Shown piece after piece: positions 4,001-19,810 of a stretch of DNA of 25,970 bases. A program made the translations under genes and the position numbers. Origin of the DNA: a bacterium (GTDB lineage: Bacteria; SZUA-182; DTGQ01); assembly GCA_023512255.1 (NCBI GenBank), contig JAILZY010000047.1:1-25970 (forward strand). Direction: 5' to 3'. The first letter of the stretch is position 1. Every line of letters starts with the position of its first letter. Under the pieces are notes generated by a model, which searched no databases, was not told where the DNA came from, and saw only the letters and a program-made list of their open reading frames with translations.

Positions 4001-4530
4001 CAGAACTTGCAGGATTCCATCTCACCGGCAAAATCTGTGGCCTTTGGCCAAAAGGGCTGATCCGCTACCGGTGTGCAACCATCAAGCCGCAGGATTGGCT
4101 AAGAGTGTGGATCGAGCATCTAGTGTTGAATTTTTTGCCAGAAGGCACTCACCACCCCAGGGAAAGCCTGCTGATCGGCAGCGATGGCCAGTGGTATTTG
4201 CCTCCTATTCCAGATAGCGAAAAAATCCTAGAGCGCATCCTGAACTACTACCAGCAAGGAATGAGCTTTCCTCTCCCCTTCTTTCCAGCCACCTCCTTCG
4301 AGTATACCGAAAGGATCATCACGAAGGGCCAGGCTGAGGGAGAAGCCAGGCAAATGGCCAGAAAGATTAAGTGGGAAGGAAATAACTTCAGGTCGGGTGA
4401 GGAAGGTGAGCGAGAAAACCCATACCTTCGCCTGTGCTTCGGCCAGACCGATGATCCACTAAATCAAGATTTCGCCACCCTGTCTCAGGATATCTACGGG
4501 CCTATCCTTCGTTATAGAAGGCAGGATTGA
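1054..4530 (+). CDS. recC: Exodeoxyribonuclease V gamma subunit RecC
   Basis: The RecC subunit of the RecBCD helicase-nuclease repairs double-strand breaks; it splits the duplex and recognises Chi in characterised enzymes. Family hallmarks are QSKGMERWLSIRLAQRFG near the N-terminus, the PMRSIPHRVVALLGMGDGLF segment about residues 685-705, and RDEDLYLFLEAILCAREHLL shortly after. No Walker A motif is visible, as expected because RecC carries degenerate helicase and nuclease folds. The length (1158 residues) is close to E. coli RecC (1122). I start at ATG 1054, with GAGG six bases upstream; a GTG at 1042 would add four residues. It is first in an operon with recB and recD, the common recCBD order. 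The stop is followed at once by a 15-bp-stem hairpin. Confidence 0.95.
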   Translation: MAGFRVFVSNRLEALADCLAELIESKPLSSPLMREQIVVQSKGMERWLSIRLAQRFGIWGNCCYPFPNKIIYDLIRLVVPNMPDQDLFEPRILTWRLAKHLSACRLRPEFESLRNYLTPEEGEDSGSGQKEACLTLRQLQLARRLADTFDRYLMFRPQWVLAWERGEEIKNRGKDTHWQAELWRELVKEIAATHPATEADQAWAAHKAAILQKFLNRISELSPDELPSGQAFERICIFGIPSLPPLHLKVFYAISKFLDVNLFLINPCQEYWFDIASDKDLVRVHKKFASRAHPLTQTSPEKATEPPPAGVSSEEELHFETGHPLLASLGKHAAHFFDTLFDLPLIEEESRFEDPGEGSLLCCLQSDILFLQDRGRQKEKKIIAADDDSIQIHVCHSPMREVEVLYDCLLDLFNRKPDLEPRDIIVMTPEIETYAPYIEAVFATCQDLSRKIPYSIADRSARREGQLVEVFFNILDLCRSRFGQSQVLDILETPCIQRRFGLEGEGIMCVRRWVEQTRIRWGVDAESRKRWGVPDFQENTWRAGLDRLLLGYALPATEDKRMFAEILPYDSIEGEEAAILGRFLEFIDQLFNQTKELEPPRSLAEWAASLQQLMDRLFQPDEAEEIQQEAIQEVLQELREIQQKADFEDKVSLKTIRAYLADRLENKKPAYGFLSGGVTFCTLLPMRSIPHRVVALLGMGDGLFPRIARPAGFDLMAKEPRKGDPSKRDEDLYLFLEAILCAREHLLISYVGQSIRDNSQIPPSVVVSELIEAIERGFEHPQGKILDRIITTHRLQAFSPAYFQPDGPLFSFCQENLNALLTRSRNSSQHNLSQDQDNKPKEETETKRPPFILFPLPYTWGGERKTVSLSQLIQFLANPAKFFLISRLGIRLDDSLLALNEREPFEICGLDRYQIEQELVQRKLQEEDLEDHQATVRSRGMLPHGAMGKIAYQDLCTTAARLAAIVLRYTQGAKEMPPLDVDTELAGFHLTGKICGLWPKGLIRYRCATIKPQDWLRVWIEHLVLNFLPEGTHHPRESLLIGSDGQWYLPPIPDSEKILERILNYYQQGMSFPLPFFPATSFEYTERIITKGQAEGEARQMARKIKWEGNNFRSGEEGERENPYLRLCFGQTDDPLNQDFATLSQDIYGPILRYRRQD

Positions 4531-4586
4531 GGGGAAAAACCTTTTGAAAAAGGTTTTTCCCCTAAACCCCTTTTCTAAAACTTTTA
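4531..4586. repeat. Partial copy of the composite hairpin element between recC and recB
   Basis: Immediately after the recC stop, 4531-4562 is a perfect inverted repeat with 15-nt arms (GGGGAAAAACCTTTT) and a 2-nt centre. It is followed by a linker and half-palindrome (CTAAAACTTTTA, 4575-4586) that match the H3-H2 part of the full element at 18320. The matching right half of H2 and the H1 hairpin are missing. One arm position differs from the full copies (C to A) with the paired change in the other arm. It could stabilise the recC 3' end or partly terminate transcription inside the operon. Confidence 0.75.
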
Positions 4587-4620
4587 ACTACTTAACCCTA
4601 AACCATCAAAAAGGGGAGAA

Positions 4621-7600: not shown

Positions 7601-8392
7601 GCTGGGGCAAGAGCCGGAACCTGTCTCCATGAGATTTTAGAGCATCTTGATTTTTCTGGAAAAAACTCAGAATCAAACCGCCAGATGATCAGCGAGCGGC
7701 TCTCTTTCCACGGCTTTGATCAGACCCTAGCTCCTTCGGTCTCATCGCTCCTTGATCGGGTGCTGGCTACACCACTGATAGAAGGCCGACCTGATTTCAC
7801 CCTCTCTGCCCTAAGCTCCTCGGAGCGGCTGGAAGAGATGGATTTCTATTTCCCCTTGGAGCGGATCACCTGCCGGGGACTTGGGGAGATTTTCTCGACC
7901 TGGGGAGGCTCTGAGCTAGTCAGGGAATTTGGCAGTCTGCTTGAAAAACTCGATCAGCATTCGCCAGGCCACGCCCCTTGGGCAGAGGAAGACAAAAGCT
8001 TTGCCATTCGCGGACTGCTTAAAGGCTACATTGACCTTGTGCTTTGCTTTGATGGCCGCTATTTTCTGGTTGATTACAAATCTAATTATCTTGGCCCAAG
8101 GCTTGAAGATTACTCCCCAGCAGCCCTAGCCGAGGTCATGAAACGGGAGTATTATATTCTTCAATACCATATATATACTCTGGCTCTTCACAAGTACCTG
8201 GCTCAAAGGATTCGAAACTACAGCTACCAAAGACACTTTGGCGGTGTTTTCTATATTTTCTTGCGGGGAATGAACCCAGTGTGGGGGCCGCACTTTGGGG
8301 TCTATCAGGACCGTCCGCCTGAGACCCTGATCAATGCTCTCAACCACTACCTATGTGGCTATAAGGCCGAAAGAGAGGAGTGGAACGACTAA
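4667..8392 (+). CDS. recB: Exodeoxyribonuclease V beta subunit RecB
   Basis: The 3'-5' SF1A helicase and only nuclease of RecBCD. The N-terminal UvrD-like helicase has Walker A ASAGTGKT (K25) and motif II DEFQDTD (384-390). These are followed by GDPKQAIYSFRGAD (motif III), a TIHRSKGLEYPIVF segment (motif V) and LLYVALTRAKY (motif VI). The C-terminal RecB-type nuclease domain shows GTCLHEILEHLDF, then D1123, and D1136-Y-K1138 in LVDYKSN. The 13- and 2-residue spacing equals the E. coli D1067/D1080/K1082 catalytic set, so the nuclease should be active. At 1241 residues it is a little longer than E. coli RecB (1180). The 136-bp gap from recC holds a strong hairpin, so recB may be expressed by read-through or separately. 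The stop overlaps the recD ATG by one base. Confidence 0.96.
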   Translation: MTHFDLLTSPLEGRNLIEASAGTGKTYTIAGLYLRLLLEKRLSVDQILVVTFTVAATEELRGRIRQRIRQALAAFAGQENNDEFLAGLVKKVGNSRLSLTLLNDALYCLDEAAVFTIHGFCQRVLQDKAFECSLLFDTELISDQSALVQDVVDDFWRIHICQASEMFISFLKTKKLTPESLASFVSSSLAKPNLRIIPECDELTPPRELEEATLKVFDQLRTIWPKQRDQVAELLSAGQKLNHNKYPPDSISHWIEEMDQCLATGNPFACYENKKRDKLKKFCSSSLNKAVKKGGQPPQNQVFILTEELFSSLSKLETTYKQQLVALKRRLLAFVRQELDKRKKERNIRSFDDLLSSLQAALERDQGKSLAKEIREKYRAALIDEFQDTDPIQYAIFKAIYPDQESILFLIGDPKQAIYSFRGADIFAYLEAAKNVEARYTLGTSWRSSPGLIKAVNSLFSSRNNPFIFHEIPFYPVDPPPEEKGGGARGGLTFGGQPDSEPLQIWFLSGDDHSGTISREDAEKKLTEAVASEIIRLLKAGQVGEALIEGRPVACGDIAVLVRTNQQASRLQEALRRRNIPSVLYSSESLFASREAADLLQVMTAVAEPNQEEKIRAALVTELIGKSGNELARLIEDATAWGEVLNEFRLYHELWLRPRQGFMIMAAALIARRGIKSRLLAYPDGERRLTNLLHCLEVLHQVALENGFGIDGLLKWFARQINERPEKEEYQIRLETDELAVKLVTIHRSKGLEYPIVFCPYTWYTYGGRQDGEDKPAFFHDPENGWQPTLVLNPQDQERAKSLAEQEALAENLRLLYVALTRAKYRCYLAWGKIKATETSAPAYLFHAGKDEDESDPIKATAARISSLDERSMLDELNSLAQKAHKTIRVCPLPAPSSESYQAPALQVEKLSCRTFSGTIANDWRIASFSSLVSGKEEEHWDRPGRDESHDLPPSGIQKNDREIESLDQALLSASDFPAGARAGTCLHEILEHLDFSGKNSESNRQMISERLSFHGFDQTLAPSVSSLLDRVLATPLIEGRPDFTLSALSSSERLEEMDFYFPLERITCRGLGEIFSTWGGSELVREFGSLLEKLDQHSPGHAPWAEEDKSFAIRGLLKGYIDLVLCFDGRYFLVDYKSNYLGPRLEDYSPAALAEVMKREYYILQYHIYTLALHKYLAQRIRNYSYQRHFGGVFYIFLRGMNPVWGPHFGVYQDRPPETLINALNHYLCGYKAEREEWND

Positions 8393-10329
8393 TGAGCGAC
8401 CAAAACGGCTGGATGACAGCTTTTGACTCCTGGCAGGAGGGTGCGAAGATCAGTAGGCATTTTGCCCGCTTCATGCATCGGCTGGCTGGCGAAAATTGTC
8501 CTGAGCTCTTTTTGGCCGCCGGCCTGCTCAGCCGTTATACAGAAGAAGGCCATGTGTGTCTTGATCTTACCCAAGTTGCCGGCAAGCCCCTGGCCGAAGT
8601 GCTGGACGGCACCGAATGCCGAAAAAGTTGCCCGCAGCTAGCTCACTGGATCAAGGTTTTGAGGGAAAGCAAGGTTGTGGGTTACCCAGGTGAATATAAA
8701 CCCATGATCCTCGATGATGCAGGCCGGCTCTATCTTTACCGCTACTGGGAATATGAGCAGATTGTGGCTGACAACCTTACCCAAAGAGCCTCGCGGCCAT
8801 GTCCTGGGGTTGACCGCGCGCTCCTTGAGGATGGGCTCAGGCGGCTTTTTCCAGAACCGAGCGGAGGAAGTGAGACTAATACAGGTGAGCCCAACTGGCA
8901 GAAGATCGCGGCCATGACTGCTGTTTGCCGAATGTTCTGTGTTATCTCTGGCGGTCCTGGGGCAGGGAAAACCTCAACTGTGGTCAAGGTGCTGGCCCTT
9001 CTCATCGAGCAGGCCAAGGGAAAGCCGCTGCGCATCGCCCTAGCCGCGCCTACTGGCAAAGCCGCCAAGCGCCTTCAGGAATCCATCCGAGAAACCAAAG
9101 GGAAACTAGCTAGCCCAGCCGAAATCATCCGCCTGATTCCCGATGAGGCATCAACTATTCACCGGCTGTTAGGTATAGGCCATAGCTTTTCACGACCGCA
9201 CTACCATGAGGGAAATCCCCTACCCTACGAGGTAGTAGTGGTGGATGAAGCCTCAATGATCGACCTTCCCCTCATGGCTAAACTGGTCCAGGCAGTTGCC
9301 CCCGCAGCCCGACTGATCATCCTTGGGGATAAGGACCAGCTAGCTTCAGTTGAGGCAGGAGGTGTGCTAAGCGATATCTGCGGTCTTGGCCTAAAGTGGC
9401 CTTCTCATGTGGTGGCCAGCGATGGCGGGACCAATGCCGGGCAAGGGGAAATCCCCCTCAGACAAGAGGGCTTGAGCTTTCTGGCCATCCTGGGCAAAAG
9501 CTACCGCTTTGGCTCAGATAGCGGCATTGGTATGCTCAGCCGCTCGGTCAAAGAGGGTGAGGGAAAGCGGGCGCTCAGCCTCATGAAAGGCCTCACAGCC
9601 AATAAATACCAGGATATTGCCTGGCGGCCATGCCCGCCTGCAGCCGCACTGCCAAAAGCCATTGCTGAGCGCGTTATCCAGGAGTATGCCGACTATTTCA
9701 CAGCCAAAGACCCAAACGAGGCCTTTCAGCGTTTCAATCGCTTTCGCCTCCTTTGCGCCATGCGCCAGGGGACCTATGGGGCCGAGCGGGTAAATGCTCT
9801 GATAGAGGATGAGCTTCGGCGGGCCGGTCTGATCAAGAGCAGAAACCGCCGCCACTATCCAGGGCAGCCGATCATGATTTCCTGCAATGATTATCAGCTT
9901 GGGCTTTTTAACGGCGACCTCGGCCTTATTCTGTCTGATCCGACAGCCCCAGACACTACCCTGGCAGCCTATTTTCCCACCTCTGATGGAGCCATGAGAA
10001 AAATTCCCCCAAGTCTCTTGCCTGGGCATGAGACCGTCTATGCCATGACCGTTCACAAGAGCCAGGGCTCGGAGTTTGACCGCATCCTGCTCCTTCTGCC
10101 CGACACAGACGCTAAAATCCTAACCCGGGAGCTGATCTACACCAGCATTACCAGAGCCAGAAATTATGTTGAGGTGTGGAGCCAAGAAGAAATCTTTCTA
10201 AGCGCTGTCTCACGGCGTATCGAGCGACAGTCTGGACTCCAGGATGCCCTGCTAATGCGGGTTGTTGAAATTGGAAGGAACCCTTATTCAATAAGGGTTC
10301 CTTCCCAAACCATCCTCCCAAAACTTTAA
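8392..10329 (+). CDS. recD: Exodeoxyribonuclease V alpha subunit RecD
   Basis: The fast 5'-3' SF1B helicase of RecBCD. Walker A GGPGAGKT (187-194, K193), Walker B VVVDEASMIDL, GDKDQLASVEAGGVL (motif III), and TVHKSQGSEFD with SITRARNYVEVWS (motifs V/VI) are all present. ATG 8392 overlaps the recB TAA by one base with AGGAG 11 nt upstream; a GTG at 8380 would add four residues but leaves no room for that ribosome site. The length (645 residues) exceeds E. coli RecD (608). The last ~19 residues (RNPYSIRVPSQTILPKL and flanks) are encoded inside the hairpin element starting at 10273, so the native C-terminus has probably been replaced or extended by repeat sequence. It is convergent with yifB. 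Confidence 0.96.
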   Translation: MSDQNGWMTAFDSWQEGAKISRHFARFMHRLAGENCPELFLAAGLLSRYTEEGHVCLDLTQVAGKPLAEVLDGTECRKSCPQLAHWIKVLRESKVVGYPGEYKPMILDDAGRLYLYRYWEYEQIVADNLTQRASRPCPGVDRALLEDGLRRLFPEPSGGSETNTGEPNWQKIAAMTAVCRMFCVISGGPGAGKTSTVVKVLALLIEQAKGKPLRIALAAPTGKAAKRLQESIRETKGKLASPAEIIRLIPDEASTIHRLLGIGHSFSRPHYHEGNPLPYEVVVVDEASMIDLPLMAKLVQAVAPAARLIILGDKDQLASVEAGGVLSDICGLGLKWPSHVVASDGGTNAGQGEIPLRQEGLSFLAILGKSYRFGSDSGIGMLSRSVKEGEGKRALSLMKGLTANKYQDIAWRPCPPAAALPKAIAERVIQEYADYFTAKDPNEAFQRFNRFRLLCAMRQGTYGAERVNALIEDELRRAGLIKSRNRRHYPGQPIMISCNDYQLGLFNGDLGLILSDPTAPDTTLAAYFPTSDGAMRKIPPSLLPGHETVYAMTVHKSQGSEFDRILLLLPDTDAKILTRELIYTSITRARNYVEVWSQEEIFLSAVSRRIERQSGLQDALLMRVVEIGRNPYSIRVPSQTILPKL

Positions 10330-10400
10330 TTAATTTAATTAATTAAAGTTTTGGGAAAAGGGTAAAAGGGGAAAACCCTTTTTCAAAAGGGTTTTCCCCT
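10273..10400. repeat. Composite three-hairpin element, copy A (H1-H2-H3), between recD and yifB
   Basis: Three consecutive palindromes. H1 is 10273-10305: arms GGAAGGAACCCTTAT and its complement, 3-nt loop. H2 is 10317-10355: perfect 19-bp A/T-rich arms around one central base, edges CCC/GGG. H3 is 10368-10399: arms GGGGAAAACCCTTTT, 2-nt centre. Linkers contain AAACCATCCTCC and GGAAAAGGGT. The recD stop (10327-10329) lies inside H2; the yifB stop is 30 bp past the end. A further half-hairpin (10406-10423, AAAGGGTTTTCCCCTTAT) repeats one H3 arm plus the linker as found in copy B. Its place between convergent genes suggests bidirectional termination or mRNA 3'-end protection. Confidence 0.85.
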
Positions 10401-10429
10401 CAAACAAAGGGTTTTCCCCTTATCACGCC

Positions 10430-11986
10430 TTAGCGCCAGTAATCCCCACGGTCAAGGCTTCGGTACTGGATGGCCTCAGACACATGGCTAGGGCTGATTC
10501 TCTCTTCTCCAGCCAAGTCAGCAATAGTTCTAGCCACTTTTAGGATCCGATCATAGGCTCTTGCGCTCAGGCCAAAGTTATTGATAGCCGCTTCGATGAG
10601 TTTTGAACAGTCGGCATCAAGGGTGCAATATTTCTTGATCTGCTTGCTGTTGAGCTGAGCATTGCAGAAGATGCTCTGCTCACCCATTCCGCCGTTGGGG
10701 TTACGATAGCGCTCTTCCTGCACCTTTCTGGCTCGATTGACCCGTTGGCGAATCTGCTGTGAGCTCTCACCATCCGTCTGGCCGATCAGGTCCTGGTACT
10801 CCAGGGCTGGCACTTCGATGTGAAGGTCGATCCGATCAAGCAGAGGACCTGAGACACTGGACAGATACTTTCTAATCTCCCGAAAGGTACAGCGGCATTG
10901 CCTGGTGGGATGTCCCAGAAAGCCGCACTTGCAGGGATTCATGGCTGCCACAAGTAAAAAGCGGGCCGGAAAGGTTAAAGAGATGCTCGATCGACAGATG
11001 GTAACCGAGCCATCTTCAAGGGGCTGGCGCATGACCTCAAGAGTGCGGCGGTCAAACTCGGTCAGCTCATCCAGAAACAAAACCCCATGATGGGCTAGGG
11101 AAACCTCACCAGGCCTGGGGATGTTTCCGCCACCGATCAGCCCGGCGTTAGTAATGGTATGGTGTGGAGCCCGAAATGGCCGCGAGGTTATCAGGGCTTG
11201 TTCCCGCCTCAGCAGCCCGGCGATACTATGAATCTTGGTGGCCTCGATAGCCTCCTGCCGGGTCATATCGGGGAGAATGGTTGTAAGCCGTTTTGAGAGC
11301 ATGGTCTTGCCAACTCCCGGAGGGCCGATCAAAAGGACATTATGCCCGCCAGCAGCCGCAATCTCAAGAGCCCGCTTGACATGCTGCTGCCCCTTGACAT
11401 CACGAAAATCAACCTCTTCAACCCGATCCGAAAGAAAGATCTTCTCCCGATCTATCTGCCGCGGGGCGATTTCCAGTAGGCCATTTAAGAATGCATTAGC
11501 CTCAAGGAGCGAGCGAACCGGGAAAATGTTTATCCCCTCAACCACCGCGGCCTCATTAGCATTATCTGTGGGCAAAATGAATCCACAGAGGCCTAGTTGC
11601 CGAGCTAACATGGCCATAGCCAAAGCTCCCTTAATAGGCCGCACTGCACCGTCGAGCGAAAGCTCGCCAGCTATCAGGTACTGATCGAGGACCTTGGCCG
11701 GAATCATTCCCTGAGCTGACAAAAGACCAATGGCAATCGGCAGGTCATAAACCGTCCCCTCTTTACGGATATCAGCCGGAGCCAGATTGATGGTAATCTT
11801 CTGGGAGGGGAAAGTGAAGCCGGAGTTATTCAGGGCGGATTTGACCCGCTCTTTGCTCTCTTTGACCGCAGTGTCTGGAAGCCCAACAGTGGTCAGGTTG
11901 GGAAGCCCTCTAGCTAAATCCACTTCTACTTGAACTGGATAAGCATCTATACCCAGGATAGCACCACTTAGAATTTTCGAAATCAT
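10430..11986 (-). CDS. yifB: YifB/ComM-family Mg-chelatase-like AAA+ ATPase
   Basis: In characterised relatives ComM is a hexameric helicase that aids branch migration during natural transformation; YifB is its orthologue in many bacteria. An N-terminal Lon-S16-like ChlI domain (KILSGAILGIDAYPVQVEV onward, about residues 1-170) precedes an AAA+ module. That module has Walker A GPPGVGKT near residue 220, Walker B VLFLDELTEF, and the cysteine-bearing NPCKCGFLGHPTRQCRC insert typical of YifB. The C-terminal Mg-chelatase domain ends in a short helical region. I place the start at ATG 11986 (MISKILSG), where family similarity begins; an in-frame ATG at 12043 would add 19 unmatched residues. Neither start has a clear ribosome site. 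It is monocistronic and convergent with recD; both genes handle recombining DNA, though no operon links them. Confidence 0.93.
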   Translation of the reverse strand: MISKILSGAILGIDAYPVQVEVDLARGLPNLTTVGLPDTAVKESKERVKSALNNSGFTFPSQKITINLAPADIRKEGTVYDLPIAIGLLSAQGMIPAKVLDQYLIAGELSLDGAVRPIKGALAMAMLARQLGLCGFILPTDNANEAAVVEGINIFPVRSLLEANAFLNGLLEIAPRQIDREKIFLSDRVEEVDFRDVKGQQHVKRALEIAAAGGHNVLLIGPPGVGKTMLSKRLTTILPDMTRQEAIEATKIHSIAGLLRREQALITSRPFRAPHHTITNAGLIGGGNIPRPGEVSLAHHGVLFLDELTEFDRRTLEVMRQPLEDGSVTICRSSISLTFPARFLLVAAMNPCKCGFLGHPTRQCRCTFREIRKYLSSVSGPLLDRIDLHIEVPALEYQDLIGQTDGESSQQIRQRVNRARKVQEERYRNPNGGMGEQSIFCNAQLNSKQIKKYCTLDADCSKLIEAAINNFGLSARAYDRILKVARTIADLAGEERISPSHVSEAIQYRSLDRGDYWR

Positions 11987-12086
11987 CGGATCATTCAACC
12001 AAAAGCAAGATGCTGAAAAAGATTGATCCTGTTTGATCTCCATTAAATTAGACTGAAGTGATAAAATTTATTCTTTACTATTTATT

Positions 12087-12116
12087 AATATATTATACTT
12101 TTGCTATCTTTGTCAA
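12087..12116 (-). promoter_or_regulatory. Sigma70-type promoter for yifB
   Basis: On the minus strand a perfect -35 TTGACA (12116 to 12111) is followed after 18 bp by TATATT (12092 to 12087). A TATAAT also occurs but only 13 bp from the -35. Predicted start near 12080, upstream of both candidate yifB starts. Confidence 0.6.
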
Positions 12117-12197
12117 ATGAAATTGAAAATATATAAAACCCGCTACTTTGAATAAGAGAAAAGTTGAAAAGTTTAAGAGAAGGTAGAGAATTATTGA

Positions 12198-13526
12198 TTA
12201 CAGCAGCAGGCCAAGGGAAAAAGAGAATATCTGGTTGTCGTAGTCTGATCCTGCCTCACCTCCGCTGGATTGTCGGTGCCTGTTCTCAAACCTCAAATCC
12301 GCAGCCAGCCACTCCTGAGGCTGGTATCTCAGCCCTATCCGCCAGGCATAGATCGAATCCCGCCGAGGATTCTGCGGCCGGCCATACCTGTTGACTGTAT
12401 TGCGGTACTTGTCAAACTCATAGGTGAAGCCTGAGAGAGCTCTGAGCTTGTAGGTCAATTGATGATCCAGGGAGATTCTGGCCTGATGCAGGGTATATTT
12501 ATTGAAATCTTCAACCAGATTTCCGCTTTTATCCATCTTGAGCCAGGAGTATTCCCGATCCCCCTTCTCAAGCCCAAATTCAAACCTGGTGCGCTCAGAC
12601 AGCCGATGGGTAAGATTAACCGTAGCTACAGTCATATTAATCTCTTCCCCTTCCTGATATTTCTTGCGGGAAAATCCAAACCTGATCTGGCCAGAGAGCC
12701 TAGCTGTTGCCTCCCAGCGGATCCCCGGCCCCAGAATCCAGGTGCTGGAGTCATCGGTATATCTCCTCGAATCCCGATAGTCGATCTGATAATACTGGCC
12801 CAAGAGAAAGATAGTAGTCTTTGGTTTGATCCGCATATTAACTGAGGTTTCGTAGTGATCCTCATTTCGGTTGTCCAGGCTTAGCGCACTGTCACTGTAG
12901 CGGTAGGTGGCCAGGCTGTATGAGAAATCCAGTCTGAGATTATCGTTGCAGTTTAGGCCAAGCTTAGAAGAATATCGGTTTTCTGTGCGCATTCGCCGGC
13001 CTTCTGTCAGTTCGGCAGGCTCATCGATCTTGTTTTGAACATGGCCAAGGTCAAGGGCAAGCTGTCTGCCTCCCTGTCCAAAAAGAAAATTTCCCGTGGT
13101 GGACAGCCTCCATCCATCGTAGTCCCAGTCTGAATGTTCCCGATAGTGCACAAAATCCCATAACCAGTCAGCTTTGATCGTATGTCGCCTAATCGGCCAC
13201 TCTGCCCTAAGGCCAGGGGAGTAGGCCGAGACCAGATCTGCCCCCCTTTCGGGATAATCCACATCAACCATCTTATAGTATGTTTCCCTAAGCATAAAAC
13301 CGGGATGGATTTCCATCTGACCTAAATGCAAATTGCCTACTGCCCAGCCTGGCCGGATTTGTAAAAGAAGCAGAATAGTAATAATCATCAGGGCAGCAAA
13401 AAATACTCTCCTTTGCTGCCCCAATCCTTCTCCTTCTTTCTTTTGCCCCCAACCTCCTTTCTTTGATGCCGATTCCTTGTCTTCGCTCATCCAATATCTT
13501 CGCTCATGCAACAAACTCCTCATCAT
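12198..13526 (-). CDS. Putative outer-membrane beta-barrel protein (BBP2-like)
   Basis: An exported protein of 442 residues. A charged N-terminus is followed by a hydrophobic stretch (FFAALMIITILLLLQ, about residues 41-55) and a probable signal-peptidase site after GWA. The mature part is a series of amphipathic strands rich in Tyr, Trp and Arg with short polar turns, as in 14- to 18-stranded barrels. It resembles the beta-barrel porin 2 type often found near exopolysaccharide genes; that link is from overall character, not a defining motif. The last residues SFSLGLLL alternate like a terminal strand but lack the usual final Phe/Trp. I choose ATG 13526 because GGAGAGGAAGA lies directly upstream; an in-frame ATG at 13490 is an alternative and would shorten the long n-region. 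It lies 132 bp after the DUF4139 gene, probably in one operon. Confidence 0.65.
   Translation of the reverse strand: MMRSLLHERRYWMSEDKESASKKGGWGQKKEGEGLGQQRRVFFAALMIITILLLLQIRPGWAVGNLHLGQMEIHPGFMLRETYYKMVDVDYPERGADLVSAYSPGLRAEWPIRRHTIKADWLWDFVHYREHSDWDYDGWRLSTTGNFLFGQGGRQLALDLGHVQNKIDEPAELTEGRRMRTENRYSSKLGLNCNDNLRLDFSYSLATYRYSDSALSLDNRNEDHYETSVNMRIKPKTTIFLLGQYYQIDYRDSRRYTDDSSTWILGPGIRWEATARLSGQIRFGFSRKKYQEGEEINMTVATVNLTHRLSERTRFEFGLEKGDREYSWLKMDKSGNLVEDFNKYTLHQARISLDHQLTYKLRALSGFTYEFDKYRNTVNRYGRPQNPRRDSIYAWRIGLRYQPQEWLAADLRFENRHRQSSGGEAGSDYDNQIFSFSLGLLL
13480..13507. repeat. 11-nt direct repeat covering two start-like contexts
   Basis: TCTTCGCTCAT (minus strand ATGAGCGAAGA) occurs at 13480-13490 and 13497-13507, a 17-bp period. 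The inner ATG (13490) is in frame with the barrel protein; the outer one (13507) is not. It looks like a slippage duplication of an initiation region. Confidence 0.6.
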
Positions 13527-13658
13527 TCTTCCTCTCCTGCTCAAATATAGATAGTTAGGTGGCCTTTGGGCATCCCTTTTTCGTCATGTGCGGATAAAAC
13601 TACTTGCATCAACTCGCTTCTTATGTGACCTTGGGGAATAATTCTCAAAAACAAGCTA

Positions 13659-15170
13659 TTAAAATTCCACCCTGATCCGATAGGTAAGTTTAGCCTCTCC
13701 CCTGGCTGGCACAGGCACGGAAAAGCCAATTTTATAGGCCTCAAGCCGCTCATAGGGATGGGAGCTGCTCAAAATTTTCCACTCACCCTGCACCGGCTCA
13801 ATCACCTGAACCACAACCTTCTCATCCCGACGGTTCCTTAGCTCAACCTGCCAGCTGCTCTCATACACCTGGGCAGCCACCTTCTGCCACTCCATTTGCT
13901 TTTGTACCCCAAGCACATCAAAAGCGCTGCCGATCTGGATCCGCACAGTCTCATCAGGCGGTGTATCCATGAGGCGATCTTCGCCAATAAACTCAAAATG
14001 AGTGCGACTTGCGCCTGAGCCAGCAGCAGCCTGGTAAACCCTGATCACCCCCTGCGGCAGGGGAAGCCCAAGGTGATGCTCCTTCCTATTTTCCAGCTTG
14101 AGGTATACCCGAGTAGGTCTTGGCGGCGGCTGCGGCAAATCCCGCTGACTGCGCTGATATATTCCCTCTCCTAGAAAGATATATTCTTTCTGAATAGGGA
14201 TTTTGGTCGCCTCGATAAAGGAAATCTGGGTAGTCTGCTGGTCTTTGAGGGTTGAGGGCTTATCTAGCGTATAGAGGTGATACTCGGCCAACGCCTCCTC
14301 ACGAAAAGGGGAAGGCTGGGCAGCAGTGTCTACCTCAAGGCTTTCAGCAGCTAATCCTTTTCGCCTAATGCCGTATCTGACCTCTTCGGCCCGCTTTACC
14401 TCTCCAGCCACCAGTTTGATTTTGGCCGCAGGGAAAGTAACTCCGCTCTGATTGTCGATGGTTACCCAACTGAATAGATTACCCTCGGCTGCTTTCTGAT
14501 CGAGCCGCAGGAGATAATTGGCTGTCCAGTTTAGGCCGCGAGACAAATAGGATACAACAATCGGCTTCTCCTGCGCCTTTCGGAGCGAATTTTTCACCAG
14601 CCACCGCAAGGTTGGCCGAGCAACCATCTGCTCGGGAATTTTGGGCAGCACAAGGGTGCCAGCCGGATACCCAAGATATATTTCTCCCTTGATCTGATAA
14701 ATAGGTTGATTGTTATGATAGCTCACCAGCTCTGCCTCAAGCAAGCTCTTTTCACCCGTCTTTGGATTTTCCGTCAAAATCTTAAGCTGTTTTCCCACAT
14801 ACTGCTTCAGCAAATTCTCCTGAGTGATGAGGTCATATTCGAACTTCTGCTCCAGGATTTTGATTTCCCGATCTTGAGTCTCAATAAAGACTGTCTCTGG
14901 CTCGATCTGGGCAGGCACATCCATAAATAGCACCTCCTGACTCTCCTCAGGAGAAAAAGCCACCTTTCGCTCCTCTCTAATCAGGCCGTAATTTTGATTG
15001 TAAATAGTTAAGGACAGCCAGCTTCTGCTTTCTCCGCCGCTTCGGATGATCGAGTTTTTCGAATATTCTGCTTTAGCAGATTCCACAACAAGGAGAATAA
15101 CCATAGAGATCAGCCCAACGAGGGCTAATCCTGCCCTGGTCTTCAAAATCATATTAATGATCGTACTCAT
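13659..15170 (-). CDS. Exported DUF4139-domain protein
   Basis: 503 residues with a signal peptide: hydrophobic LALVGLISMVILLVV, then cleavage likely after SAKA (about residue 34). The mature protein is beta-rich and follows the DUF4139 pattern: an early TIYNQNYGLIREER strand pair, the YLSRGLNWTANYLLRLD segment, then WVTIDNQSGVTFPAAKIKLVAGEV, and a C-terminal half of immunoglobulin-like strands with PVPARGEAKLTYRIRVEF at the end. No catalytic motif is visible; the family has no settled function and is periplasmic or surface-exposed by inference. ATG 15170 has GGGAGGG about 10 bp upstream. It is first gene of a minus-strand pair with the outer-membrane barrel and divergent from the polysaccharide phosphatase gene. 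Confidence 0.85.
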   Translation of the reverse strand: MSTIINMILKTRAGLALVGLISMVILLVVESAKAEYSKNSIIRSGGESRSWLSLTIYNQNYGLIREERKVAFSPEESQEVLFMDVPAQIEPETVFIETQDREIKILEQKFEYDLITQENLLKQYVGKQLKILTENPKTGEKSLLEAELVSYHNNQPIYQIKGEIYLGYPAGTLVLPKIPEQMVARPTLRWLVKNSLRKAQEKPIVVSYLSRGLNWTANYLLRLDQKAAEGNLFSWVTIDNQSGVTFPAAKIKLVAGEVKRAEEVRYGIRRKGLAAESLEVDTAAQPSPFREEALAEYHLYTLDKPSTLKDQQTTQISFIEATKIPIQKEYIFLGEGIYQRSQRDLPQPPPRPTRVYLKLENRKEHHLGLPLPQGVIRVYQAAAGSGASRTHFEFIGEDRLMDTPPDETVRIQIGSAFDVLGVQKQMEWQKVAAQVYESSWQVELRNRRDEKVVVQVIEPVQGEWKILSSSHPYERLEAYKIGFSVPVPARGEAKLTYRIRVEF

Positions 15171-15238
15171 AAATAAACTTCCCTCCCTTTAAGTTCTGTA
15201 ATTTAAAATTAAGATTAGATTAAGATGTTCTTTACCCT

Positions 15239-15267
15239 ACTATATCATAAAGTATGAGTTTTCAAAA
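15239..15267 (-). promoter_or_regulatory. Possible promoter for the DUF4139 / beta-barrel pair
   Basis: On the minus strand TATAGT (15244 to 15239) lies downstream of an A/T tract offering TTTTGA at 17 bp, TTTGAA at 16 bp or TTGAAA at 15 bp. The -10 is good, the -35 only fair. The 250-bp divergent spacer otherwise holds the CpsB promoter. Confidence 0.4.
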
Positions 15268-15306
15268 AAATTATTTACTTTGCCGCTTCAAAAGGCGATC
15301 CTATTC

Positions 15307-15335
15307 TTGCCATAGGCATCATTTGCATGTATAAT
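15307..15335 (+). promoter_or_regulatory. Sigma70-type promoter for the CpsB-type phosphatase gene
   Basis: -35 TTGCCA (15307-15312), 17-bp spacer, perfect -10 TATAAT (15330-15335). Predicted transcription start near 15342, leaving a leader of about 79 nt. Confidence 0.7.
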
Positions 15336-15420
15336 CGTCTGCACAATATGTGTTTGCAGAAACCTCTAGACTTTTTAGACTGGGGGGACTATACCTGATT
15401 AAATAAGGATTTTCAACGTC

Positions 15421-16200
15421 ATGATGATTGACTTACATTGTCATATCTTGCCTGGCCTGGATGATGGAGCAAAGGATATCGAAGAATCTCTCCGCATGTG
15501 CTATCTGGCTGCTTTGGACGGGATCGGCAAGATTGTGGCCACTCCTCATACCATGAACGGGGTGTATGTCAATAAAACCGAGACCATAAAGCAGGCAGTG
15601 AGGGAATTAAACGATCTTTTGACCCAGGAGGGAATCGGCCTTGAGATACTGCCAGGTGCCGATGTTCATATTCATCCCAACCTGCTGAAGCTGATCGAAA
15701 CGGAGAATATTACTACAGTCAATGATAATCACCGCTATCTTATGCTTGAGCTGCCTCACCAGCTGGTTCCTCCAAATTTCAAAAATCTGGTCTTCGAGTT
15801 GAACCTGCAAGGGATCATCCCTATCCTTACCCATCCAGAGCGAAACTCAATTCTGCAAAACGATATCAACCTGATCTATGAGCTGGTAGAGCAGGGTGTG
15901 CTGATCCAGATCACTTCGCTAAGCCTGATCGGAGAGTTCGGGTCAAAGCCGGAAGATTGCTGCCACAAGCTGCTGAAATATAACCTAGTTCATATCATCG
16001 CCACAGATGCCCATTCATCCAAGATCCGGCCTCCTCTGCTTTCTCCTTCCGTAGAGGTGGCTAGCAAAATCATCGGAGAACAGGATGCCCTTGACCTGGT
16101 AACTACTAATCCTCTGGCCATCATTGAGGGGAGGGATATTCCCAATCCGAAGGAGCCGGAAAAGCCGCGGCGATCTTTTTTCCGGCGGCTCTTTGGCTAA
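15421..16200 (+). CDS. CpsB/CapC-family PHP-domain tyrosine phosphatase
   Basis: Metal-dependent phosphatases of this family dephosphorylate the tyrosine-rich tails of bacterial BY-kinases that control capsule and exopolysaccharide chain length. The sequence opens with the PHP motif DLHCHILPGLDDGA (H6, H8, D14, D15) and continues with ATPH, the GADVHI strand, LTHPERN and TDAHS, all carrying expected metal ligands. The length (259 residues) is usual; the basic tail RRSFFRRLFG is a possible membrane-contact end. ATG 15421 (a second ATG follows) has AAGGA about 11 bp upstream. No BY-kinase or polysaccharide export gene is in the window, so the substrate is unknown. It probably shares a transcript with the glycosyltransferase 56 bp downstream. 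Confidence 0.9.
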   Translation: MMIDLHCHILPGLDDGAKDIEESLRMCYLAALDGIGKIVATPHTMNGVYVNKTETIKQAVRELNDLLTQEGIGLEILPGADVHIHPNLLKLIETENITTVNDNHRYLMLELPHQLVPPNFKNLVFELNLQGIIPILTHPERNSILQNDINLIYELVEQGVLIQITSLSLIGEFGSKPEDCCHKLLKYNLVHIIATDAHSSKIRPPLLSPSVEVASKIIGEQDALDLVTTNPLAIIEGRDIPNPKEPEKPRRSFFRRLFG

Positions 16201-16256
16201 GAACTCGGAAAGTAAAACCCAATAATTAAAGATAATCAGTGGAGATCAAAACAATT

Positions 16257-18338
16257 ATGGAATCATCACCCGCTGGGGCCAAATCCTCTCATCCTACTGG
16301 TTGTCCTTCTTTAGAAAAACTTTTATCCCCAGAAAGGCTTTCACCCACCCGGCTTGCCCTAACCATTGCCCTCCTGCTGATCCTGGGCAGCCTCTGTTAC
16401 GCTAATTCCCTAAAAAACTCCCTGCTCCAGTGGGATGATCATCGCTATATCCTGGATAATCCCTATATTCGGGCCATTTCCTGGCCCAATATCAAGGCTC
16501 TTTTGACCAAGCCCTACTTCAAAAACTATTCTCCGCTCCATGTTCTCTCCTATCAGATAGATTATCATTTTTGGAAATTCCGACCCGAAGGCTACCGACT
16601 GGTGAATATCCTGCTTCACCTTGCCAGCACCATTCTGGTTTTCCTTCTAATTTTTGACTGGTATAAGACCTATTCAGCTGCCCTCACCGCTGCGGCCATA
16701 TTTGCCGTGCATACCATCCATGTGGAGTCAGTGGTCTGGATTTCGCAGCGAAAAGATGTTCTGTCCGCGCTCTTCTTCTTCCTCTCCCTATACGGATATA
16801 GCCGATTCAGAAATTGTCAGCCTCGACCCCTGGCAAAATGGTCCTGGTATGCCGCCTCCCTTCTGGCCGCAGGGCTAGCTTTACTCAGCAAGCCAGTGGC
16901 TATAACCCTGCCCCTGATTCTGATACTTTGTGAGGTTTGCTTTCGCCGACCAAAAGAGCCTATTCACTTTTGGTCTAAAGTCCCCTTTTTTCTCTTCTCC
17001 GCTCTTGTGGCTGCCGCTACTTACTGGGCCCAGCGAGCCGAGGTCATGCATTATGTAGGTGACAGTTTCTGGCTCTCTCTCCTTTTGACTGTAAAGATAC
17101 TGGGCCTCTATCTTGGAAAGCTCTTTTTGCCCATTGGCCTGTCAAACCGCTACCTATTCTCGGCAAGCAAAGTGTCTGAGCTTATCACTCCCTCTTGGCT
17201 ATTGGCCAGTGGTTTTTTCCTACTCTTTTTGGCCGGAGTAGTATTTCTATGGTTTTGGAATAAATCCTTAGCTTTTCCCGGCTGCTGGTTTCTGATCACC
17301 TTGCTGCCAGTAGCTAACCTTGTGCCCACCAGCACCCAGATGGCTGACCGCTATCTGTATCTGCCCTCGGTTGGCTATTGCTTGGCCATTGGGCTTGTGG
17401 TTTCGGCCTTGATCAGAAGAGGGCGGCAGCAGTCAGCGGGCCTAGGCCAAGGGAGAATTATTAAAACCGTGGTTGTCTTTCTGGTAGCTGGGCTAGTTGT
17501 GCTCTATGGGGCCTTGACCTTAGCCAGAAATCGCGTCTGGCGCGATGATCGTACCTTGTGGGAAGATGCCCTGGCCAAGGATCCCGCCAATTACTGGGCA
17601 GCTACCTACCTAGCCAATACCTATCTGCTCGAGGCCCAAAAAAATCAGGATCTTAAGGGAAGAGAGGAAAATATCAACCGGGCTAAGGGGCTCTTCCTCC
17701 AGGCTATCAGGCAGGAGCCTAATTTTGCTCAGGCTCTTTTGGGAATGGGCAGCGCCCTGCTTGACGAAGGTAATACGCAACAAGCCATAGCCTACCTGTG
17801 GCAGGCCAGAAGGTGGAGCACTGAACAGCAGCAGGCGCTTCGAATCGAGCACAATCTTGGCGTTGCGTATGCCAAGCTCAATCAGTTTGAGGCCGCAGAA
17901 AAGATCTTTACCTCTATTATCAAGCAGGATCAAACCTTTTATCCCGCCTACCTTTCCCTAGGCAAACTCTACCTCTCCTGCGGCACCCTGGCTGGCTATC
18001 AGATGGCGGCTGAGCAGTATAGCCGGGCTATTGCCTCATCACCCTATGATCCGCGGGGCTACCTCTTCCTCGGCATAGTCAAAGAGCTGCTCGGAGACTA
18101 CCAGACGGCCTTGATAAATTACCACCAGGCGCTGCAACTAGCCGCCGGTGAGGGAGGCTCTCCTTTTATCGGCTTGGCCGCTGATATTCACCTAAGTCTA
18201 GCCGGACTCTACCACCGCCTAGGAGATTATCCAAAGGCTATCGACCATTATACTCGCTTCCTTGAGCTCGCGCCCAGACATCCAAAAGCTGACCTGGTGC
18301 GCTCAATAGTGCTTGAGTTAAGGGGAAAACCCTTTTGA
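16257..18338 (+). CDS. TMTC-like membrane glycosyltransferase with C-terminal TPR repeats
   Basis: A GT-C-type multi-membrane protein resembling bacterial relatives of the eukaryotic TMTC O-mannosyltransferases. Hallmarks are QWDDHRYILDNPYI after the first membrane helix (acidic pair in the first outer loop), YSPLHVLSY, the VESVVWISQRKDVLSALFFF motif, and MADRYLYLPSVGY. About ten hydrophobic segments occupy roughly residues 30-430. Then come TPR-like repeats (about 445-690) with recurring LG..Y...G....A...Y..A patterns; these usually bind protein acceptors. Donor and acceptor cannot be read; a polyprenyl-phosphate sugar is the family norm. I use ATG 16257, with GGAG 12 bp upstream; GTG 16239 would add six residues. 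The last codons and stop lie inside hairpin element copy B, so the tail RGKPF is repeat-derived. Confidence 0.85.
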   Translation: MESSPAGAKSSHPTGCPSLEKLLSPERLSPTRLALTIALLLILGSLCYANSLKNSLLQWDDHRYILDNPYIRAISWPNIKALLTKPYFKNYSPLHVLSYQIDYHFWKFRPEGYRLVNILLHLASTILVFLLIFDWYKTYSAALTAAAIFAVHTIHVESVVWISQRKDVLSALFFFLSLYGYSRFRNCQPRPLAKWSWYAASLLAAGLALLSKPVAITLPLILILCEVCFRRPKEPIHFWSKVPFFLFSALVAAATYWAQRAEVMHYVGDSFWLSLLLTVKILGLYLGKLFLPIGLSNRYLFSASKVSELITPSWLLASGFFLLFLAGVVFLWFWNKSLAFPGCWFLITLLPVANLVPTSTQMADRYLYLPSVGYCLAIGLVVSALIRRGRQQSAGLGQGRIIKTVVVFLVAGLVVLYGALTLARNRVWRDDRTLWEDALAKDPANYWAATYLANTYLLEAQKNQDLKGREENINRAKGLFLQAIRQEPNFAQALLGMGSALLDEGNTQQAIAYLWQARRWSTEQQQALRIEHNLGVAYAKLNQFEAAEKIFTSIIKQDQTFYPAYLSLGKLYLSCGTLAGYQMAAEQYSRAIASSPYDPRGYLFLGIVKELLGDYQTALINYHQALQLAAGEGGSPFIGLAADIHLSLAGLYHRLGDYPKAIDHYTRFLELAPRHPKADLVRSIVLELRGKPF

Positions 18339-18445
18339 AAAAGGGTTTTCCCCTTATAACCCTTTTCCTAAAACTTTAGCTAATTAATTAAAGTTTTAGG
18401 AGGATGGTTTGGAAGGAACCCTTTTTCAAAAGGGTTCCTTCCAAA
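18320..18445. repeat. Composite three-hairpin element, copy B (H3-H2-H1), inverted relative to copy A
   Basis: The reverse-complement arrangement of the 10273 element. H3 is 18320-18355 (17-bp arms, core GGGGAAAACCCTTTT). H2 is 18367-18400 (CCTAAAACTTTA arms, two central mismatches). H1 is 18408-18445 (core GGAAGGAACCCTTTT, 18-bp arms with flanking T/A pairs). Both linkers match copy A; overall identity is roughly 85-90 % by eye. H1 here and H3 of copy A share an identical 20-nt core while their outer bases differ as matched pairs. It lies between two convergent genes, overlapping the stop at 18336-18338 and ending 5 bp before the stop codon of the minus-strand gene. Likely a bidirectional terminator or 3'-end stabiliser. 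Confidence 0.85.
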
Positions 18446-18450
18446 ATTAA

Positions 18451-19221
18451 CTAAATTACTGGCGGCGTTAAAGTAAGTGAGAATGAACCTGTCCCGATGA
18501 TCGAGGTACTATTGATCTGGGTATAGGTACCTGTCATTTCCGTGGGAGAGATCAGGGTGCAAACTAGGTCAAGCTGGATAGTCTGGCTGCCAATCCCAAT
18601 TGCTGAACCGGAGAGAATGATCTGGCTATTGAGTATTTCTCCAGTAACAGGTACCAAAACTCCGAGGTTCGGGTTACCTACCATCTGAGCGTAACCGGTA
18701 ACCGTAGTGGTCAGAACAGGATCTACCACTAGGTTCAAAGTCATGGGCCCGGTAACATAAGCTACTGTTTTAGTAGAGCCGCTCCAGGTACCTGTCCATG
18801 TTCCGGCCTGCTCGGCTAGACCATATCTTAGACCTAAGCCTCCAAGGCCATACAGGCCGCCATACAAGCCGCCATACAGACCATACAGGCCACCCAAGCC
18901 GCCATACAGGCCGCCGTACAGGCCGCCGTACAGACCATACAGACCACCGTACAGGCCGCCATACAGACCACCGTACAGGCCGCCGTACAGACCACCGTAC
19001 AGGCCGCCGTACAGACCGCCGTAGAGACCTCCATACAAGCCGTACAGGCCACCATACAAGCCGCCATACAGCCCCCCATATAGGCTGCTGCCGTACAAGC
19101 CATATAATCCACCATAGCCGTAGCTATAGTAGGCATGAGAATTTCTCTGGGGAATTACGGTCAAGATGAATAACAACATGGAAGAAATGAGCAAGAGTTT
19201 GCATTTGGCAGAATAATACAT
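18451..19221 (-). CDS. Secreted LYGG-repeat protein with C-terminal beta domain
   Basis: 256 residues, function unknown. The signal peptide (CKLLLISSMLLFILTVIP core) has probable cleavage after NSHA (residue 30). Residues about 35-134 are nearly pure LYGG/LYG repeats: about 22 units with occasional LYG shortening and two LGG variants. The repeat is followed by a non-repetitive region of ~120 residues beginning GTWTGTWSGST, rich in Thr, Val and Ile, with a beta-sandwich or lipocalin-like look and one Cys. ATG 19221 has GAGAGGAG eight bases upstream, so I reject a start 27 bases further out. The periodic tyrosines on a glycine background recall structural or adhesive proteins; that role is inference. 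Convergent with the glycosyltransferase gene. Confidence 0.85.
   Translation of the reverse strand: MYYSAKCKLLLISSMLLFILTVIPQRNSHAYYSYGYGGLYGLYGSSLYGGLYGGLYGGLYGLYGGLYGGLYGGLYGGLYGGLYGGLYGGLYGGLYGLYGGLYGGLYGGLGGLYGLYGGLYGGLYGLGGLGLRYGLAEQAGTWTGTWSGSTKTVAYVTGPMTLNLVVDPVLTTTVTGYAQMVGNPNLGVLVPVTGEILNSQIILSGSAIGIGSQTIQLDLVCTLISPTEMTGTYTQINSTSIIGTGSFSLTLTPPVI
18820..19119 (-). repeat. In-frame 9/12-nt repeat array encoding (LYGG)n
   Basis: About 300 bp of tandem units encoding LYGG (12 nt) or LYG (9 nt). Neighbouring units differ mostly at synonymous third positions. All unit lengths are multiples of three, so copy-number change would lengthen or shorten the protein without a frameshift. The low-complexity DNA also leaves long frames open in other phases. 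Confidence 0.9.
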
Positions 19222-19810
19222 AATTAATCTCCTCTCTCCGAGCCACAAGCCACTTTAACCCTTCTTGAAAATCAACTTCTTGAAAATTTCCCTCTTATGA
19301 TCTTCCTCAAAAGATATCCCCTTACTGTGAGAAGGGAAACGAGAATAACTTGATTTTTTGCTAGCTATACACCTCCCTTCCTTGAAAAGCGCTAGCCATG
19401 ATCATGCAGCCCCAGGTCTTATTCCCCCGCCGCGCTTGGCTCGATAGCCCACTCTTCCCCTTTAAGGTCAAAGGTATTGGCCGTGATATCACCAAACATA
19501 ATGATCAATAATGACCCCAAGAGCAGCAACATTGATACCAGGTCATGAACAAAAACAGCCGGAAGAGAAAAATTATCACCAATAATCAGGCTAGAATATG
19601 GAATTTTCTCTATCTGATTGCAGGGCGGGGTCTTATACAGATGCAGAATTTGAACAGGAGAGAAGGGTTTAAAAAATGAGCTTTTTGTCATAAACTCTAT
19701 AGGTTTTTTGTATTAAATTTATACCGAACAAGCCAAGCGGTTTGGGAGAAAAAAATGACTTATTTCTATCGCTTCTTAAAAATTTTTTGGCATAATTTTT
19801 GCAAAAACAT
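19222..19810. other. Spacer between the LYGG-repeat gene and carA
   Basis: It holds a 12-nt direct repeat (CTTCTTGAAAAT at 19261-19272 and 19276-19287), a doubtful small minus-strand frame (19419-19691), and a 12-bp palindrome TTTTTGCAAAAA at 19796-19807. I found no convincing promoter for the LYGG-repeat gene. Confidence 0.5.
19419..19691 (-). CDS. Doubtful small membrane protein (90 residues)
   Basis: An ATG-started frame with one clear hydrophobic segment (LVSMLLLLGSLLIIMFG, about residues 52-68) and an acidic tail. There is no good ribosome site, no recognised family, and the N-terminal half looks unstructured. It could be a real short protein, the remnant of a longer one, or chance. Confidence 0.25.
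   Translation of the reverse strand: MTKSSFFKPFSPVQILHLYKTPPCNQIEKIPYSSLIIGDNFSLPAVFVHDLVSMLLLLGSLLIIMFGDITANTFDLKGEEWAIEPSAAGE

Follow-up and report, generated by a model that had tools for sequence, protein, structure and literature searches.

The DNA studied here, called the window hereafter (the whole stretch of 25,970 nucleotides that was analysed), carries copies of a short element that belongs to a genuine family of composite palindromes of REPIN-like type, which has expanded in certain lineages and extends across phyla. The element is repeated many times in its host genome, lies in intergenic DNA and is organised as an inverted doublet, and its plan is found again in other phyla. A linker within it is complementary to the adjoining host DNA, the two halves of its central apex are complementary to each other, and its units show no association with Y1 transposases. 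We consider it probable that the family is mobile, that its arms are homogenised by DNA template switching and that it is mobilised in trans by an enzyme that is not of the Y1/RAYT type.

According to this model, a non-autonomous palindromic repeat made up of two facing half-units would be copied into intergenic DNA within genomes, the copying enzyme being supplied in trans and probably distinct from a Y1/RAYT transposase. The long stems would form DNA hairpins during replication, at which the polymerase may stall and switch template, so that one arm is rewritten from the other. Template switching could also copy the host flank into the linker, thereby extending the H3 stem, and duplicate the outer half-hairpins. 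The matched changes seen in the two arms would then mainly be a mutational signature.

Architecture of the element in the window

The element is about 130 bases long and contains three hairpins, H1, H2 and H3, in this order. As the original prediction had it, the three modules follow one another at 10273-10399 and are found inverted at 18322-18442, and a half-copy at 4531 consists of an H3 hairpin and its head. The features of the three copies and the genes adjoining copy 1 are as follows.

4531..4562, minus strand: H3 hairpin of a half-unit (singlet), immediately past the recC stop codon (4528-4530)
4563..4590, minus strand: head of this half-unit (AAACCCCTTTTCTAAAACTTTTAACTA); the second half is missing or decayed
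8392..10329, plus strand: recD, whose frame continues into the element for about 19 residues
10273..10305, plus strand: H1 hairpin of copy 1 (GGAAGGAACCCTTATT-C-AATAAGGGTTCCTTCC), within the extended recD frame
from 10306 up to the H2 start at 10317, plus strand: H1-H2 linker of copy 1 (AAACCATCCT)
10317-10355, plus strand: H2 of copy 1, paired inverted heads CCCAAAACTTT...AAAGTTTTGGG with an A/T palindromic apex; the recD stop lies inside and ends at 10329
10356..10367, plus strand: remainder of the head (AAAAGGG) and copy-specific H2-H3 linker of copy 1
10368..10399, plus strand: H3 hairpin of copy 1 (GGGGAAAACCC...GGGTTTTCCCC)
10406..10419, plus strand: additional outer half-H3 (AAAGGGTTTTCCCC) beside copy 1, a putative footprint of tandem duplication
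10430..12043, minus strand: gene for a yifB-like Mg-chelatase ATPase, convergent with recD
18322..18353, minus strand: H3 hairpin of copy 2, the element being inverted here with respect to copy 1; the TPR gene upstream ends at 18338, with its stop codon inside this hairpin
18367..18400, minus strand: H2 of copy 2 (CCTAAAACTTTAGCTAATTAATTAAAGTTTTAGG)
18411..18442, minus strand: H1 hairpin of copy 2

Each full copy is made up of two inverted half-units, each with a conserved head (AAAGTTTTNGGRAARGGG) and a G-rich hairpin. H2 is formed by the two heads paired with each other, and the two palindromes are H1 and H3. Read from the centre outward, a half-unit starts with the head, AAAGTTTTAGGAAAAGGG or AAAGTTTTAGGAGGATGG, and continues into the G-rich hairpin; GGTTT precedes H1 and a variable linker precedes H3. 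The two full window copies have folding z-scores of -10.8 and -10.2, and the half-copy at 4531 has one of -2.1. A scan of the window against Rfam 15 gave no match at the family gathering score.

The window encodes RecC, RecB, RecD, the yifB-like ATPase, a TPR protein and a glycine/tyrosine-rich repeat protein. Copy 1 sits between the convergent recD and yifB genes, and copy 2 between the TPR gene and the repeat-protein gene, also convergent. In three relatives, RecD ends in RQSGLQDALWG-stop (same genus, G001), RQSGLRDALWG-stop (same family, G002) and RQTGLREALWG (same family, G003). In the window, RQSGLQDAL is followed by about 19 residues encoded by H1 and H2, and the native DALWG-stop is lost. 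Since the frame enters H1 and H2 where the native stop has gone, the element, or a rearrangement involving it, replaced that stop. Beside copy 2, positions 18451-19248 encode a predicted protein with about 25 tandem repeats of GLYGG type, which a degenerate 12-base repeat encodes.

Copies in the host genome and in other lineages

The host assembly is a 3.83 Mb draft of 172 contigs (96.6% complete, probably metagenome-assembled), in which the window is contig C36. BLAST scores 40 near-full copies in this genome, and a search with a covariance model built from 30 copies gives about 57 full and about 35 partial or weaker ones, many of them half-elements. These data support the predicted dispersed, REP-like family. 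The full copies are about 90% alike, apart from the A/T apex of H2 and the H2-H3 linker. The apex is hypervariable, with 36 different short forms in a set of 45, and four apex haplotypes are each common to two to five copies at unrelated sites, sometimes with differing H1 loops. The H2-H3 linker, of 3-6 bases, is copy-specific, with 28 types in 49 copies; contrary to the proposal of identical linkers, this one differs between copies.

Solitary half-elements are of the H3 type (about 24) or of the H1 type (about 8), and the DNA on their inner side is unrelated. There is also a longer form of the element, in which about 50 bases are kept between the heads. Singlets are as conserved as doublets, with pairwise identities of 0.883 and 0.868, respectively. 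Five contigs (C4, C17, C61, C85 and C133) end at or within an element, mostly at H2, so that the true number of copies is probably higher than the draft assembly shows. A second interspersed palindromic repeat (GCTCTTATTTATTAGCTACCATTGAGAGACATAACCC...ATAAGAGCG) adjoins several half-units, on contigs C45 (L322, about 80-200), C39 (L124) and C97 (L110).

Among other genomes, no units were found in the same-genus G001 or in the same-family G002 and G003. In three genomes from other families of the class (G006, G007 and G008) and in one from another phylum (G040), the plan is the same and the head similar, with different arms. In G007, the H2 apex bears an additional hairpin of about 100 bases and an outer stem closes a cloverleaf. 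The elements of this genome (L068-L077) have a conserved apex palindrome, AAGGAATTTGGTTGGCGGCACAA...TTGTGCCGCCAACCAAATTCCTT, which resembles a second hairpin inserted into the apex.

A pattern made of the head and the start of the hairpin, run over 84,980 species genomes, matches at least 101 stretches. The groups among the matches listed are Clostridia, Desulfovibrionaceae, Desulfarculaceae, Planctomycetota, Hydrogenedentota, Verrucomicrobiota and one genus of Nitrospirota; half-units of a related kind are present in Nitrospirota, Planctomycetota, Verrucomicrobiota and desulfovibrios. With a looser pattern, which may tally palindromic matches and overlapping gap variants more than once, 80 units are counted in the host, 76 in Ruminococcus sp. 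YE71, 72 in Verrucomicrobiota JPAS_metabat.76, 50 in Magnetomicrobium and 48 in Planctomycetota J132; the reversed control pattern gives none in any of the 17 genomes searched with it. The Ruminococcus doublets carry the full three-hairpin plan. In Planctomycetota bacterium J132, head-to-tail arrays with several different hairpins in succession are seen (L192, L205, L209 and L215), and inverted doublets elsewhere. A model specific to the window matches in only 7 of 386 genomes, and therefore detects nearer forms only. A covariance model of the superfamily (R2) was set aside, as its predicted structure had lost H2.

It is quite possible, though we put it forward tentatively, that these units form one superfamily spread over at least five bacterial phyla and copied by a non-Y1/HUH enzyme that would recognise the head AAAGTTTTNGGRAARGGG beside a hairpin of free sequence. 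A head that is conserved across phyla while the arms differ is also what would be expected of a protein-binding site. The element could accordingly be a chromosomal host site, serving a nucleoid protein, gyrase or chromosome organisation and kept by selection on the head, and the lack of any unit in 2.9 million viral contigs fits such a role. However, the element is missing from close relatives, and half-units and doublets occur in any orientation, with no clustering or strand rule seen. A host site is, to our mind, quite improbable.

Placement relative to genes and matched arm changes

To determine gene context in stretches of the host genome, we used a home-made, codon-based gene caller, for which 426 kb of this genome served as training set. 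None of 80 typed copies lies inside a gene. The 50 typed strong copies are distributed over 30 tandem, 12 divergent and 8 convergent gaps, and these three types of gap make up 67%, 24% and 9% of the intergenic length, respectively. In tandem gaps, the median distance of a copy from the stop upstream is 8 nt and that from the next start 53.5 nt, a closeness to stops that exceeds random placement (p about 1e-4 or less); 10 of the 30 tandem copies include or touch the stop codon. For five divergent placements, Pfam confirmed the genes on either side, among them RecJ/UvrC and glycosyltransferase/methionyl-tRNA synthetase.

The element could be a selected RNA structure, either a bidirectional terminator or a protector of mRNA 3' ends, whose compensated changes would result from selection on the RNA fold. 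Indeed, the folds are very stable, the arms covary, tandem copies lie far nearer to stops than random and every convergent copy lies at two gene ends. However, the closeness to stops may also reflect avoidance of promoters and ribosome sites, and the share of copies between divergent genes is near the divergent share of intergenic length. Both orientations are used about equally (17 to 13 in tandem gaps), and the element is lineage-specific, being missing from the nearest relatives. Scans of both full window copies for terminators and promoters gave no site, and no T run follows a G/C-rich hairpin, so that the U-tract of a terminator is lacking. These data speak against the bidirectional terminator of the original prediction, and we find selection on an RNA element unlikely. 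The placement is consistent with insertion at any site outside promoters and coding regions, and not with a dedicated terminator. Because tandem copies lie so near to stop codons, a 3'-end stabiliser, the other role in the original prediction, is still conceivable, and some copies may possibly be of benefit at the 3' ends of genes.

All five G-rich hairpins of the window pair throughout, as had been noticed, but the rule is not absolute genome-wide: in the 30 copies, 97.2% of base-pair cells pair and 43 cells do not. In this set, nine pairs have changed on both sides, giving 41 cells against 15 in shuffles (a value reached in 0 of 500), counts that are inflated by the kinship of the copies.

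Three further patterns bear on how such changes came about. In 13 of 49 copies, the linker on the 5' side of H3 and the host sequence directly 3' of H3 are complementary, which lengthens the stem by 3-5 bases (TACA/TGTA, TAGA/TCTA and TTTG/CAAA, for example). The summed match length is reached in none of 20,000 permutations of the flanks, and complementarity is found again in an independent set of 23 singlet half-copies (p=0.013). The two halves of the apex covary, with a mean of 4.27 pairs against at most 4.18 in 2,000 half swaps. Finally, about 14 of 49 copies have a duplicate of an outer half-hairpin beside H1 or H3 (counting by pattern gives 10 on the left and 6 on the right, one or two of them being loose matches), in some cases together with flank, as for AAAGGGTTTTCCCC-TAAATTT, which is present twice. 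The H1 loop is inverted in one full copy of the set of 49.

That template switching can produce matched changes in stems, lengthen stems and invert loops has been published (PMC8794818). Because of the linker-flank complementarity, the apex covariation and the half-hairpin duplications, DNA synthesis is favoured over RNA selection, and judging from the sequences these patterns are probably footprints of template switching and slippage. The linker-flank complementarity could alternatively arise from selection for longer stems or from guide-target pairing. The fold had been thought to be maintained by selection or by a copying mechanism; copying explains the matched changes well and makes RNA selection unnecessary. 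At quasipalindrome loci, template switching likewise homogenises arms, extends stems and inverts loops with no need for selection on the fold (PMC8794818, PMC7202029, PMC8604942). These loci are the outcome of a mutational process and not a family of elements, whereas here the process would act on a dispersed repeat.

Search for a mobiliser and comparison with known systems

Several classes of bacterial repeats resemble the element. Bacterial MITEs such as ERIC, Correia/NEMIS and RUP are short, non-coding, hairpin-forming, intergenic and present in high copy number, as is the element. MITEs have the terminal inverted repeats of a known IS, whereas the element ends in complete hairpins, and neither a target-site duplication nor, near or between its units, a parent IS was found for it. 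BIMEs of Escherichia coli are, like the element, composites of inverted palindromic units near gene ends; the element differs in that it also occupies divergent gaps, is unrelated in sequence and lacks a RAYT. REP sequences have as their head a tetranucleotide of GTAG type, 5' of the palindrome. The head of the element is AAAGTTTTNGGRAARGGG, and no GTAG-type tetranucleotide was found 5' of its palindromes.

The element also resembles REPINs, which are dispersed extragenic palindromes that form inverted doublets and take on hairpin or clover shapes when folded, in dozens to hundreds of copies, with singlets also present (Bertels and Rainey, 2011; PMC3116915). The element could be a REP/REPIN family in the strict sense, with a RAYT (Y1) transposase providing its mobility in trans. 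Its extragenic inverted doublets with singlets match the REPIN definition (PMC3116915), and the host genome does encode one RAYT-like domain, a single Y1 domain located in a DNA-methylase frame. However, no unit adjoins this domain, and none of 31 Y1 loci has a unit closer than about 1.5 kb. Seven genomes, several of them incomplete drafts, carry units with no Y1 match (G008, G040, G389, G392, G395, G396 and G397); among these, the isolate assemblies of Fundidesulfovibrio agrisoli (G389) and Desulfocarbo indianensis (G392) point against a RAYT. Conversely, no units were found in four genomes that have Y1 genes (G001, G002, G003 and G005, the last searched with the window-specific model and an H2 pattern only). 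Each doublet also contains two different palindromes, the head family crosses phyla, and singlets are undecayed, whereas REP singlets are decayed. Mobilisation by a RAYT is hence quite improbable as well, and a general association with RAYT/IS200 was rejected after a test in 21 genomes. The element has the architecture of a REPIN and lacks the link to a RAYT; we file it neither as REP/REPIN nor as MITE because the defining features that were tested are not all present. In the open literature, searched also with sequence strings and exclusive of subscription papers and preprints, no description of the family was found.

The single Y1 domain of the host (C83:30598-30852) lies in frame within the ORF of an adenine-specific DNA methylase (1330-2943 of L031) and precedes a REP-like peptide, SAGWKPAP. 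The arrangement looks as if a RAYT had inserted into the gene, or else reflects a misassembly.

The neighbourhoods of the units yielded no recurrent protein, no common interior was found beside half-units that could mark an autonomous parent, and no parent IS was found near or between units in these fragmented metagenome-assembled genomes. Only host genes lie between closely spaced units; we take them from their sequences to be those of alanine racemase, GlgB, endonuclease V, RecX, SmpB and PriA. The flanks show no excess of common 8-mers or longer words that would indicate target-site duplication. A weak signal of shorter words was discarded, as it vanishes with longer flanks and is inconsistent in position.

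Mobility is supported by copies at unrelated sites and outside genes, by the recurrence of the plan in other families, in another phylum and in Ruminococcus, by its absence from the nearest relatives, by the lost recD stop and by apex haplotypes common to unrelated sites. Against it, no mobiliser gene was found beside the units, there is no target-site duplication, singlets are not decayed and no transposition event was seen. On balance, we infer a mobile family and a copying enzyme acting in trans.

If this is correct, a REPIN-like organisation would have arisen, or persisted, without RAYTs. The mobiliser would then be a definable target, since it should bind one conserved 18-base head from Ruminococcus to desulfovibrios. 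The family, with dozens of long and nearly identical palindromes scattered over unrelated sites in each genome, is also a natural test bed for weighing template switching against selection in hairpin compensation. The share of template switching in compensatory change bears in turn on the reading of covariation as proof of RNA structure.
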